This document shows, piece after piece, positions 16,914-22,715 of a stretch of DNA of 64,000 nucleotides. The DNA is taken from assembly GCA_951812825.1 (NCBI GenBank), contig OX638324.1, forward strand, positions 1,549,141 through 1,613,140, in the 5' to 3' direction. A program made the translations under genes and the position numbers. The first letter of the stretch is position 1; each line of letters starts with the position of its first letter. This stretch comes from an uncultured Dehalococcoidia bacterium. GTDB lineage: Bacteria; Chloroflexota; Dehalococcoidia; Lucifugimonadales; GCA-2712585. The notes under the pieces are model-generated. The model was not told the origin of the DNA. It saw only the letters and a list, made by a program, of their open reading frames with translations, and did not search any database.

Positions 16914-17008
16914 AGGGGTGCCCTCGCCTCTTTATGCTCACTGTCGTTGTCACACGTCAATACTTAGAATAGAATAGTGCCTGTAATGTCTCACATCCAT
17001 CGAGATTC

Positions 17009-18109
17009 TTGGCTGTTCTCACGGTGAACGGCAGACGCCGCTCAGTTCGCAGCTGCGGAACGTTTATTCCCTCAATCAGTGTGACGGGACTACTAGCAGC
17101 TCTGGCTCTAGTCTTGGCTTTGACGTTGGCGTGCGGTTCGGAATCTCAGCCGACTTCGATATCCACGCCAACACCCGCACCGACGCCCGTTCCCACCCTG
17201 GCGCCAACACCCGCACCGACCCCCGTTCCTACCCCGGCGCCAACCCCAGCGCCGACGCCCGTTCCCACCCCGGCGCCAACACCCACACAGACGCCCGTTC
17301 CCACCCTGGCGCCAACACCCGCACCGACACCCGTTCCTACCCCAGCGCCAACACCGACGCCGACGCCCGTTCCTACCCCAGCGCCGACACCGACACCGAC
17401 GCCCCCGCCTACCCCTTCACCTACGCCTGCTCCGGTGGAGGAATTGTCAGCCTCAGAGGTGTACGATCTCGTCTCCCCCTCAGTGCCGTTCATCGAGACG
17501 CCTGCGTCCACGGGAAGCGGCATCCTGGTTGAAGGAGGCTACGTTGTCACAAATTACCACGTGGTGTGGCCTTACGAATCGGTTTGGGTTGTATTCCCGG
17601 ACGGCACAGAGTTGGAGAACGTTCCAGTAGTGGGATGGGACCCGATGGCGGACATAGCGGTGTTGGGACCGGTTGATGTATCCGCCCAGCCGGTGGTCAT
17701 GCAAGATGGTGAGAGAGCTACGCTCGGCAGCGAGTTGCTCTTGGTAGGTTATCCTGCCGAAGTCGATCTATTTCCCCAGCCTACTATCACCCGCGGTATC
17801 CTGTCTCGCTACAGAGAGTGGGAACGTCTGGGGATGACGTATTTCCAGACCGACGCCGCAATCGCTGGAGGTCAGAGCGGCGGGGCGCTGGTCAATTCCA
17901 GGGGCGAAGTAGTCGGAATTTCCACATTCTCCTTCAGCGAGGCCGGTTTCGCTTTGGCTGCATCGTCGACTGACGTTTTGCCCATAGTAAGAAGGTTGGC
18001 TCGGGGGAATTCACGTCTGGAATGGGAGATCGAAGATTGCCTGCTGGACGAGGGAACTTTCAGGTTGACCTTGATTTGCTCAACTACTGGGATACTCAAG
18101 CATTTGTGA
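17009..18109 (+). CDS. Secreted lipoprotein with trypsin-like (S1C) protease domain; 3' end frameshifted
   Basis: The 366-residue frame starts with a hydrophobic signal and a lipobox-like ALTLAC at about residue 42, so the protein is probably anchored outside the membrane. A Thr-Pro/Ala-Pro linker of some 90 residues follows, then a trypsin-fold domain with histidine in TNYHVV, aspartate in MADIAVL and serine in GGQSGGALV, in the order expected for a DegP/HtrA-type protease. After about residue 333 the sequence loses family character, because the true continuation lies in the -1 frame from about 18004 (next entry). The TTG at 17009 is tentative; a GTG at 17024 is an alternative. Confidence 0.8.
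17166..17436 (+). repeat. Degenerate coding repeat for a Thr-Pro-rich linker
   Basis: Short C-rich units encoding variations on TPAPTPVP follow one another without spacers, giving a low-complexity extracellular linker between lipobox and protease domain. A similar but separate tract is at 25280-25785. Confidence 0.85.
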
Positions 18110-19185
18110 TAGACGCAACCGCAGGTACCATCCTGGAGGTGGAGATAGTGGGTCCCGGTGACGGATGGTTCCATCTGGCAGACTCATTTGGCCCACTATT
18201 GGAAGTGGATGACGGTTATACCGGATCGGAATACGGTTCTGTGGAAGTGATAACGGATGGCGTCTACTTTTTGCAAGTCGAGATGGCATCGGGAGACGCG
18301 TCTGCGTTCGAGGTATCCAGCAACGTTAGACTCAAGACACTCAATGATCCTGATGACGGTCGGACTGTCGTGGTGGGCGAAACCATCGCTGGCAGCCTAG
18401 ACCACTTCGCTGACTGGGACTGGTATTCTATCAATCTCAAGGAGGGAGAAACGATAATGATATCGACAGATTCCCTCAATGTTGACACTTTAATTTACGT
18501 TGACTTCCCCAGATCCCGCGGTAATCAGGTTGTTTCCGACGATGACAGTGGAGGCGGGCTGTCTAGCGTCAATTCCGAACTTGTCTATAGAGCGCCTCAC
18601 GCAGGAGAGTATTTGATTGCTGTTGCCGACGCGGTAGGTGACAGCTCCGGCGGCTACTATCTGACAGTAGAAGGGGCGAGGGAAGGCACGGAAACTGTAC
18701 GTGTACCTCCCAGTCCTCAAATTGTAAATAGCCAATTTGGAACCATGATGGTTTTTGAGGATCCATTGGGCTACTTCTCGATACAGGTTCCAGAAGTCTG
18801 GATTGAAGAAGAACTGGATGAATCTCAAGGGGAGGCATTTAAGGCCTTCTATCCGGAAACGGGTAGCGAGGTCCGGATCATAGCAGAGGATATTCTTGCC
18901 CTTGGTATGGGGGAGCTTACTTTGTCTCAATACGCTGACTTGATTGAAGAGACGGTCCTAATACCAACAGGCGCGGCGGATATCACAAGGGAGACAGTGC
19001 AAACATCTCAAGGTTCCCTTGCGATCCTTTTCGAATTGTCGTTGTCCACGTATCGAGTAATGAGAATGATCAGCCTATTGGATAACAACGTTGCAGTTAG
19101 CATAAGCTATATATTTCCTATTGACCAATTAAGCATGGGCGAGCAGTTAGCTCTCTACTCGTTTGACAGCTTGCAAGTAAACTGA
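18022..19185 (+). CDS. PPC-type C-terminal half of the frameshifted secreted protease
   Basis: The second reading frame lacks a signal and starts inside the previous gene. It holds two bacterial pre-peptidase C-terminal (PPC)-like beta domains: one with [30 protein letters not shown] and GVYFLQVEM, the other with [33 protein letters not shown] and [14 protein letters not shown] final ~130-residue domain starts near [16 protein letters not shown]. In the sequence the frame is open back through G-S-G-E-F-T-S-G to the G5 run at 18003-18007, and a single missing G there would fuse it smoothly to LARG of the protease. So the two frames are very probably one gene of about 720 codons. Confidence 0.7.
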
Positions 19186-19325
19186 CGGTCAGCCCAGCCT
19201 TGCCCTCTCCCAACCTCGCTGCCTGACAGCTGGCCTTGCCAACGCAATTCCCTCTCTCTTTAGCTACGCGCGCTCCTACGCCGTGGAAGTTGCCGATCTG
19301 AGTTTAGGCGTGCATGGATTCCCCC

Positions 19326-20519
19326 CTACTCCTCCACCCCCGCCGCCGCCGCCAGAAAGTCTGCGTTGGTGACGCCGGCAAAGCGGTCCGGCAGGAATTG
19401 GGCCATGTCGGAGACGGCGCGGGTTGAACCACGGCAGACGTAGTCGGATATGATGCGGCCGGTGATCGGCCCCAGATGGATGCCCTTGGTGGCGTGGCCG
19501 GTGGCCAACAGCGCCCCTTCCAGTCCCGGCGCAGGACCGATGATGGGCTTGGCGTCCGGGCTTAACGGCCGGGAGCCGGCAAGCTGCTGGACAAGTTCGG
19601 CCCGCTCCAGGTCCGGAAACACGTCGATGGCGCGCTGCAGTAGCTCCAGCCGGGCGGATTCCGTTGGCTGCCGGTCGAACTCCTCGCCCAAAAAAAGCTC
19701 CCTCCGGTCGTAGTCGCGGCCGCCGGTACTGCCGACGCTGAGAAAGCCGTCCGTCCGGCTGATCATGTGACCGCGCTTGGGAGAGCTTATCAGCACTCCG
19801 AGGGGTTCGCGGGGATAGTTCAGCAGCAGCCGTTCACCCTTCATCGGTCGAACGGGGACGGGAAATCCCAGCCAGGGGGCGAAAGCGTGGCTCCACGAGC
19901 CCGCGGCCACGACCACCGTGCCGCAGTGAATCTCTTCGGCGGCGGTCTTGACGCCGACTATGCGCCCACCGCTGTTGAGGAGGCCCGTTACTTCGCGGTA
20001 CAGGATTTCGGAGTCCCTGAGTTCGGCGGCGCGGGCCAGCGCCAGGTTGAAGCGGTAGCTGTCCAGCTGGGCCGACTCGTCCTCATACACCGCGCCGACG
20101 ATAGAAGGGGACAGACGCGGTTCGATGGAGCGAACTTCGGCAGCGTCTATCCAGCGCATCTTAACGTGGGACTGCTGCCACACCATCATGCCCCTGATAA
20201 GGCCCGCTTCGTCGTCGTCCAGGGCCAGCCGGAGCGACGGTCGACGCTGGTAGAGCAGGTCCATGCCGGTGACGGCTTCCAGTTCCGGCACAAGCCATTT
20301 GAATTCGGCGTAAGAGGCCCGGGCCATCTCAAAGGAAGGCCCCGGGTTGAACTCGGCCCCCAGCAGGCTCAGGGAGCCGGTGGCGTGAGCGGATGCCCCG
20401 CTGCCGATGGCTTCCCTCTCAAGAAGGACAACGTCCACGCCTTCCCGGGCCAGATAGTAGGCGACGGAGCAGCCGACTACGCCAGCGCCAATCACGACTA
20501 CTTCGGCAGTTTTGGGCAT
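19326..20519 (-). CDS. FAD-dependent oxidoreductase, DAO family (glycine/sarcosine oxidase-like)
   Basis: A 397-residue flavoenzyme. The N-terminal VVVIGAGVVGCSVAYYLA is the FAD dinucleotide-binding motif, then LLEREAIGSGASAHATG, GTVVVAAGSWSHAF and a C-terminal block GSRPLSPDAKPIIGPAPG with LATGHATKGIHLGPITGRIISD, typical of DAO-family amine oxidases such as ThiO, sarcosine oxidase and DadA. The product of its reaction cannot be fixed from the sequence. No thi or sox genes are near. It is a single leftward gene. Confidence 0.87.
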   Translation of the reverse strand: MPKTAEVVVIGAGVVGCSVAYYLAREGVDVVLLEREAIGSGASAHATGSLSLLGAEFNPGPSFEMARASYAEFKWLVPELEAVTGMDLLYQRRPSLRLALDDDEAGLIRGMMVWQQSHVKMRWIDAAEVRSIEPRLSPSIVGAVYEDESAQLDSYRFNLALARAAELRDSEILYREVTGLLNSGGRIVGVKTAAEEIHCGTVVVAAGSWSHAFAPWLGFPVPVRPMKGERLLLNYPREPLGVLISSPKRGHMISRTDGFLSVGSTGGRDYDRRELFLGEEFDRQPTESARLELLQRAIDVFPDLERAELVQQLAGSRPLSPDAKPIIGPAPGLEGALLATGHATKGIHLGPITGRIISDYVCRGSTRAVSDMAQFLPDRFAGVTNADFLAAAAGVEE

Positions 20520-20632
20520 GTCTCCGCTCCGAAGGAAGAGTTGTTGGGATTATCACCACCCGACGAAGGGACGTCAATTGGTGAGGATTGCAGGAAGCGC
20601 ACTCGCACCATCCCTTAACCCCCTTCAGTCAC

Positions 20633-20668
20633 GCCTTGTCGCCCTTCCCCCTTTCAGGTAGTGTAATC
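20633..20668 (+). repeat. Dispersed repeat, family C, copy 1
   Basis: A 36-base C-rich segment with CCTTCCCCCTTT at its core and GTAAT at its end. It matches 22576-22611 at 30 of 36 positions and precedes the Yip1-like gene. Confidence 0.55.
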
Positions 20669-20759
20669 ACACTGCCGGGGTTCATCTGATTGATCTTAGA
20701 CAAGATTCTTCGCGACTACCCGTCGGTGCTCCACAAACCCAGGGAGGTTCATTCATCCG

Positions 20760-21302
20760 ATGCTGTTAAGAATGATTGGCGCCCTCCGTCTCAGGTCCGC
20801 GACCTACGAGGACATAGAGCGCGACAAGAGCGCAATCTGGCAGGCTGTAATCATCGTGGTACTGGTCTCCTTGGCCACCGTAGGCGGCGAACTGCTTTCG
20901 GGGCAGGAAACGGGACTGTGGTGGGCCCTGATCCGGGGCGTAATTCGAGGAGTGGCGAGCTGGGCCGCCTGGGCGCTATGCACCTGGGCCGTTGGGGAAA
21001 TGACTTTCGACGCTGTGGACACAGATGCCGACTGGGGACAGCTGGCAAGGACCACCGGGTACGCGCAGACACCCGGAATCCTCAACGTCCTCATCTTCAT
21101 AGAGCCGGTTGGCAGAATTATCTATTTCGCTTTGTTGGTCTGGACTTTCGTGTGCATGGTAGTCGCAGTTCGGCAGAGTCTGGACTACACGTCTACCTTA
21201 AGAGCCGCTTTCGTGATTCTGCTGGCATTCGTCCCCGTGTTCATACTGAACTTCATTGTTCTGGGGCTAACAGGAGGTCTCGACCTCTTCCCTCCTGAAT
21301 AG
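20760..21302 (+). CDS. Yip1-domain-like membrane protein
   Basis: A 180-residue integral membrane protein. About four to five hydrophobic segments are visible: AVIIVVLVSLATVGG, ALIRGVIRGVASWAAWAL, ILNVLIFIEPVG with IIYFALLVWTFVCMVVAV, and AAFVILLAFVPVFILNFIVL. The order, a charged N-terminus with RSATYEDIERD and the segment TGYAQTPGIL, matches Yip1-like proteins of Chloroflexota. No function is established. The ATG at 20760 is preceded by a distant GGGAGG; the ATG 12 bases further on is possible. Confidence 0.65.
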   Translation: MLLRMIGALRLRSATYEDIERDKSAIWQAVIIVVLVSLATVGGELLSGQETGLWWALIRGVIRGVASWAAWALCTWAVGEMTFDAVDTDADWGQLARTTGYAQTPGILNVLIFIEPVGRIIYFALLVWTFVCMVVAVRQSLDYTSTLRAAFVILLAFVPVFILNFIVLGLTGGLDLFPPE

Positions 21303-21533
21303 CCGCAGCCTGAATCTTAAGAATGCCAATGATGCCACAGATTCAAGCAGCTGCAATAGAATCGATTCATCCGAGGCTTGCAGACTCCTGCCTTGAAACA
21401 TTCGAGGGGGTACGGGTAACATAAAATCTGATTCCGAAAACAGTATCAGGCGCCATTGGAATAATTTGACGAAGCTGCGCTTTCGGTGAGGACTGCACCA
21501 TGACAGTCAATTCCCACAGGGATGAAGAGCAGT

Positions 21534-21788
21534 ATGTTTAGGGATCCCAGGTTCAACTCAGGATCATATGTCGAGCAGCGTGAGGCTATGCGATCGCTGC
21601 GAGATATGAAGAATTAGGGAAGAGCTTGAGCGCCAAGAGATGCATCGCCGGGCGATGGAAGAGAGATGGAACACCCGGAGGAGGCTGAAGATTATCGAGT
21701 AGCGCAAGAGGAACAAATGCCCGTGGCGGAATTTCCAGAGGCCAAGAAGAAGCGCAGGCGCTGGTGGAAGTTCTTCATAGGGGAGTAA
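21534..21788 (+). pseudogene. Broken copy 1 of a small charged-protein gene
   Basis: The frame from the ATG at 21534 gives MFRDPRFNSGSYVEQREAMR and stops after MKN at about 21615. A different frame then reads IREELERQEMHRRAMEE, and the original frame resumes from the ATG at 21666 with EEAEDYRVAQEEQMPV, then FPEAKKKRRRWWKFFIG before the TAA at 21786. The last part is closely similar to the C-terminus of the intact gene at 21872-22105, and the first part to the start of the locus at 22187. So this is a paralogue broken by two frame changes. The C-terminal 40 codons (21666-21788) could still be made as a short peptide. Confidence 0.65.
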
Positions 21789-21830
21789 CCCGTCATGCAA
21801 CTACCAACTGAAAAAATATCTTTAGTTTGC

Positions 21831-21839
21831 TGGTATACT
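21831..21839 (+). promoter_or_regulatory. Extended -10 promoter before the small charged-protein gene
   Basis: TGGTATACT (TG extension at 21831-21832, hexamer TATACT at 21834-21839) lies about 33 bases before the ATG. No clear -35. A strong AGGAGGAGG ribosome site follows at 21856-21864. Confidence 0.4.
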
Positions 21840-21871
21840 ACATTCTGTTGTGAATAGGAGGAGGCGTAGCT

Positions 21872-22105
21872 ATGAGTCTTACTGGACGTGGCCCGGCAGA
21901 TCAATACAAAAGCCGTCGTGCAGCCAATCACGAGAGACAGCAGCGGGAGGAAATGCTGCGGCACATTCAGGCGATGGAGGAGTCGCATTACCCGGAGGAG
22001 GAGGAGGAAGACTATCCAGTAGCGTACGAGGAACAGGTGCCTGTGGAGAAATTTCCAGAGCCCAAGAAGAAGCGCGGGCGGTGGTGGCGGTTCTTCATAG
22101 GGTAA
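21872..22105 (+). CDS. Small charged protein with Trp/Phe-rich C-terminus (family intact copy)
   Basis: A 77-residue protein of unrecognised family. It has a basic N-terminal half (DQYKSRRAANHERQQREE), an acidic middle (PEEEEEDYPVAYEEQ) and a lysine-arginine patch directly before an aromatic end, KKKRGRWWRFFIG. No signal or membrane segment is evident; the basic plus WWRFF end could bind a membrane surface or RNA, but this is speculation. The ATG has an AGGAGGAGG site seven bases upstream. Both neighbours, at 21534-21788 and 22187-22444, are decayed relatives, so this is the only intact member of a three-unit tandem group. Confidence 0.65.
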   Translation: MSLTGRGPADQYKSRRAANHERQQREEMLRHIQAMEESHYPEEEEEDYPVAYEEQVPVEKFPEPKKKRGRWWRFFIG

Positions 22106-22186
22106 TAGGCCAGCCTGCAATTGCCTATCTTGAGTCTGACAATCCAGCGCGCTCTGAATTCTGTGCAGCGCAAGGATGGGTAGCAC

Positions 22187-22444
22187 ATGCAAAGAATCCC
22201 GGACCCCAGGAAGCTCTCGAAATCTTACATTGACCAGCGAGAGGCTAAGTGAACAGGGCGTAAGCCGGATCGCATGGCAGAGGTCGAGAAGCAGTTCCGA
22301 TCAAGTTTCGAGCGCGACATCCGGGCAGAGATAGAACGGCACGACCGTGCCTTGGACCAACAGAAGCAGAAGGGCAGATTCTCAATATCCAGGAAGGACC
22401 ACAGCTGGCGGCAGTTCTGGAAGCGTGGGAACCCTCCCACGTAA
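22187..22444 (+). pseudogene. Copy 3 of the small charged-protein gene, interrupted by an in-frame TGA
   Basis: From the ATG at 22187 the frame gives MQRIPDPRKLSKSYIDQREA and K, then a TGA at 22250, and continues in the same frame from the ATG at 22274 with a 56-residue stretch (MAEVEKQFRSSFERDIRAEI to SWRQFWKRGNPPT) before the TAA at 22442. The first segment resembles copy 1 (SY, QREA) and the C-terminal tryptophan-rich basic end resembles copies 1 and 2. The 56-codon part may still be translated on its own. Confidence 0.55.
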
Positions 22445-22575
22445 GGCTGGTCCTAGTTCTCCCTTCATCCCAACCCCTCGCCAATCCCAACTCTCACAGC
22501 CAATGCCCCCTCTGAAATGGGGGCTTTCCATTTACGGCGTGCCCCAATCGGCAGCAGACAAGACAACGCCCCTAA

Positions 22576-22611
22576 GCCTTGCCGTCCTTCCCCCTTTGAA
22601 GTAGGGTAATG
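22576..22611 (+). repeat. Dispersed repeat, family C, copy 2
   Basis: Matches 20633-20668 at 30 of 36 positions. It lies in the 271-base gap between small-protein copy 3 and the LLM gene, which otherwise holds only a short GTCTCG/CGAGAC hairpin at 22670-22687. Confidence 0.5.
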
Positions 22612-22715
22612 CCAGCGAGGGTTCTCCCACATTCGTACCTGTACGGCCCTTCGCGACCACTCCCGCGAGGTCTCGCTTTTCCGAGACGTTCAGACAGGAT
22701 GAAGGGGGCAGAAAA

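Follow-up and report, generated by a model that had tools for sequence, protein, structure and literature searches.

A tandem array of three small open reading frames, lying within the 64,000-nucleotide stretch of DNA analysed here (the window), is best read, with a probability that we put at roughly two in three, as a species-restricted orphan small-protein gene that has been duplicated in tandem and is decaying in a non-conserved block. According to this reading, an orphan gene would have been duplicated about every 320 bp, copy 1 would have become a pseudogene via two compensating indels and copy 3 via a nonsense codon; the array would now be in the course of being lost, with copy 2 probably the sole copy still made. 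Re-reading of the letters returned exactly the coordinates, starts and stops of the preliminary description of this locus (Table 1). Scans of the window with Rfam and for tRNAs found nothing.

Table 1. The array and its surroundings (positions in the window).
Feature	Position	Strand	Description
Copy 1	21534..21788	+	Frame-disrupted: N-terminal block DPRFNSGSYVEQREA (frame A), middle EELERQEMHRRAMEER (frame B), C-terminal 40 codons (frame A); ATG 21534, TAA 21786-21788
Copy 2	21872..22105	+	Intact, 77 codons, ATG 21872; helix predicted at 8-39, then an acidic linker and a basic/aromatic tail
Copy 3	22187..22444	+	N-terminus related to copy 1; ATG 22187, TAA 22442-22444; single in-frame TGA 22250-22252 in an otherwise open frame
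Direct repeat unit 1	21677..21805	+	Codes for the C-terminal part and runs a few bases beyond the stop; 81% identity to 21997-22125
Direct repeat unit 2	21997..22125	+	Pairs with 21677..21805
Copy 2 leader	21850..21871	+	AGGAGG, a strong Shine-Dalgarno sequence, ~7 bases 5' of the ATG (read directly)
Terminator-like hairpin	22505..22530	+	3' of copy 3
Block of 5.8 kb separating YifB from LLM monooxygenase	16914..22715	.	These two genes lie about 0.1 kb apart in G001 (same genus)
Yip1-domain membrane protein	20760..21302	+	Upstream of the array; two other paralogues in the genome

The relatedness of the copies was assessed by alignment against shuffled sequences. Copies 1 and 2 share a 129-nt direct repeat with a spacing of 320, which spans the acidic linker and the KKKRxRWWxFFIG tail, and their DNA reaches a local score of 82 where shuffled sequences have a mean of 10.9 (sd 1.6); judged by this alignment they are certainly related. 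Copies 1 and 3 have in common a 15-residue N-terminal block, DPRxxSxSYxxQREA, whose score is reached by none of 5000 protein shuffles (1/5000 for the whole reading) and, at the DNA level, by 1/1000 dinucleotide shuffles. In contrast, no convincing direct similarity was found by protein shuffling between copies 2 and 3, either over the whole proteins (197/5000 shuffles reach the score) or over the C-terminal parts alone (1537/5000). Since copy 1 resembles each of the other two, and those two show no clear likeness to one another, it is, on these comparisons, the bridge that links them. It had been proposed that all three share an SY..QR block, a charged middle and a KK..R-WW/F end, and that shuffling could refute their similarity: the linker and tail hold for copies 1 and 2 and the N-terminus for copies 1 and 3, both pairs standing out from shuffled sequence, whereas copy 2 has no DPRxxSxSYxxQREA-type block, the end of copy 3 is within chance and the pair 2/3 does not stand out convincingly. 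Copy 1 carries the N-terminus of copy 3 together with the C-terminus of copy 2, and a small-protein family of de novo or very fast-evolving nature, exchanging N- and C-terminal modules and kept as a variable array, can also be envisaged; we regard it as very unlikely.

Codon usage was scored with 21-24 long genes of the window as a reference. In copy 1, frame A opens with MFRDPRFNSGSYVEQREA and runs into a TAG, while the related middle EELERQEMHRRAMEER continues in frame B; the best sense-strand coding frame likewise goes from A (~21524-21620) to B (~21572-21716) and back to A (~21668-21788), the switches falling roughly where the peptide similarity switches. This signal fits two compensating indels. 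In copy 3 the coding signal keeps the sense frame on either side of the TGA. The sense frame scores top in copy 2 and in the C-terminal parts of copies 1 and 3; in the short pieces from the N-terminus it comes top or ties. A coding signal that tracks the frame in this way argues for decayed genes over random frames. Similarity to the intact copy 2 across such breaks was found directly for copy 1, and for copy 3 by way of copy 1 only.

The opposite proposal, that these are chance open frames in repeated non-coding sequence and not genes, draws on an antisense open frame of 166 codons that is also present at the array, on how weakly copy 2 scores for codon usage and on the substitutions between the copies. 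The score of copy 2 is low indeed, only 2% of same-length coding windows being as low and 17% of off-frame windows being as high, so that translation is not proven by it. Besides, the 16 differences that separate copies 1 and 2 give a Ka/Ks of ~0.47 in the coding frame, which is not below that of some other frames, and they have no codon-position pattern and no clear selection either way. However, the sense frame is best or tied in every piece, the switched frame of copy 1 included, a strong ribosome-binding site precedes copy 2, and the peptide block of copies 1 and 3 stands out in both protein and DNA shuffles. We thus consider chance frames quite improbable and, returning to a decaying gene array, take copy 2 as likely to be translated.

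The product of copy 2 would be small and soluble, its charged helix being followed by an acidic linker and then by a short basic tail rich in tryptophan. Prediction from the single sequence gives one helix (8-39) followed by an unstructured tail, and the net charge goes from +2 (residues 1-36) to -10 (37-63) and +6 in the 14-residue tail (64-77). The tail, KKKRGRWWRFF, might dock the protein on a membrane surface, which is our best, if tentative, guess and has less than even odds; contact with nucleic acid is a less likely role for it. As to a membrane-spanning surface peptide, copy 2 has no hydrophobic or transmembrane span, the best 19-residue mean hydropathy being -1.06.

Other roles under conflict fare no better. 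A conflict gene with rapid turnover, whether for an antitoxin, an anti-phage protein or a surface peptide, would be in keeping with the tandem copies, their decay, their orphan status, the charged helix and the basic tail. Yet no toxin-like partner adjoins the array, and neither a toxin gene nor an antitoxin domain was seen in the array and its neighbours; PADLOC and PHROGs gave no match, and no anti-phage defence gene was recognised by PADLOC among the three copies or by Pfam among the neighbours, which are of metabolic or housekeeping type (Yip1, FAD oxidoreductase, LLM monooxygenase, DUF6027 and Fpg). Together with the lack of a hydrophobic segment, this leaves the conflict roles unsupported, and we consider them very improbable. 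Repeated duplication and decay had been called typical of such genes: duplication and decay are both borne out, while three copies in one genome do not distinguish conflict from neutral decay.

That no family could be recognised has held up in wide searches of genomes and family databases. No relative of the array was found in the genomes of the same genus (n=2), of the same family (n=4) or in others of the order. Among 393 genomes of the class, no profile match reached E 0.001 outside the own genome; two chance-level matches were returned, the better of which (G332, E 0.0015, positions 18-67) was treated as such. The 400 genomes of the phylum gave no profile match at E 0.001 beyond the own genome, in which the profile picks up only the three array loci. 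A peptide pattern scan of 84,980 prokaryote species found no relative, nor did searches of viral contigs, phages and plasmids; for the array proteins Pfam, NCBIfam, PHROGs and PADLOC hold no family over cut-off, and the best match among solved structures in the PDB has an E value of 0.18. Weak matches to the C-terminal part in a genome of the same family (G004) were traced to reading frames that derive from repeats and do not resemble the array, and other weak matches, once inspected, were composition matches within unrelated genes. Dispersed repeats in G004 (L010, L016, L018, L019) give rise, in several contigs, to frames like PFGLEGEGGVRRRPEPGRRRGLWYFFF. The Pfam family PF14812 (PBP1_TM) stays below threshold, with 15.6 bits for a cut-off of 27.8; the resemblance, an acidic stretch followed by a basic/aromatic one, is of composition only, and the array protein differs in having neither a transmembrane segment nor a transglycosylase. 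Thus, in the genomes searched, the gene is an orphan, taxonomically restricted and with no relative outside its species. Compared with bacterial orphan genes (e.g. PMC1824705, PMC4888513), it resembles them in being short, in having no detectable relatives and in lying in a non-conserved block, and differs from them in that three tandem copies are present, two of them broken.

On its upstream side the array has YifB, a trypsin-like protease and a PPC-domain frame, then an FAD oxidoreductase and the Yip1 protein; LLM monooxygenase, DUF6027 and Fpg follow downstream. The gene content gives a Chloroflexota-like impression. The order in G001 is YifB - LLM - DUF6027 - Fpg; since YifB and LLM adjoin there, the stretch between them (Table 1) is a block absent from that genome, where the site is empty. 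In G002 and G004 a different sequence stands upstream of LLM. Parts of the block have a G+C content of ~0.50-0.58, compared with ~0.60-0.69 in neighbouring genes; no integrase or transposase was seen within it, and neither of the two Yip1 paralogues elsewhere in the genome has an array relative behind it. A 50-base direct repeat (CCTTCCCCCTTT..GTAG.GTAAT core) is found upstream of both the Yip1 and the LLM genes (20633-20683 and 22575-22623) and nowhere else in the genome at ≤3 mismatches. A similar sequence, CTTGCC..GTAGGGTA, occurs upstream of LLM in G002, and the repeat may therefore be a duplicated promoter.

At 17009-19185 the trypsin-like protease (with a PTPAPTPTP-rich linker) and PPC frames overlap in different frames at ~18022-18109, with a break near 18060-18110. 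Two relatives in G001, one of them with its own TGA, carry both parts in a single frame, so this gene too looks frame-broken from the comparison. Such a nearby break could also suit assembly or sequencing indels, in which case all three genes would be intact in the organism, as an array of small proteins, and the breaks would be errors of a long-read single contig; the genome is in fact one contig of 2.47 Mb, possibly a long-read assembly. Against this, the long flanking genes of the window keep long open frames, the break in copy 3 is a stop codon within the frame and not a frame change, and every break noticed falls inside the non-conserved block; we judge such errors an unlikely source of the breaks. 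Duplication followed by decay, as first described, is in agreement with the real similarity of the copies, the coding signal that tracks their frames and this third broken gene in the block.

The array looks ordinary in kind, the outcome of a species-specific gene arising and decaying rather than a new system, and it leaves general understanding unchanged. Altogether, it illustrates cleanly and on a small scale how an orphan gene is locally duplicated and lost within one genus, in which a sister species has the empty site, and it is usable for studying the gain and loss of orphan genes in an environmental lineage.
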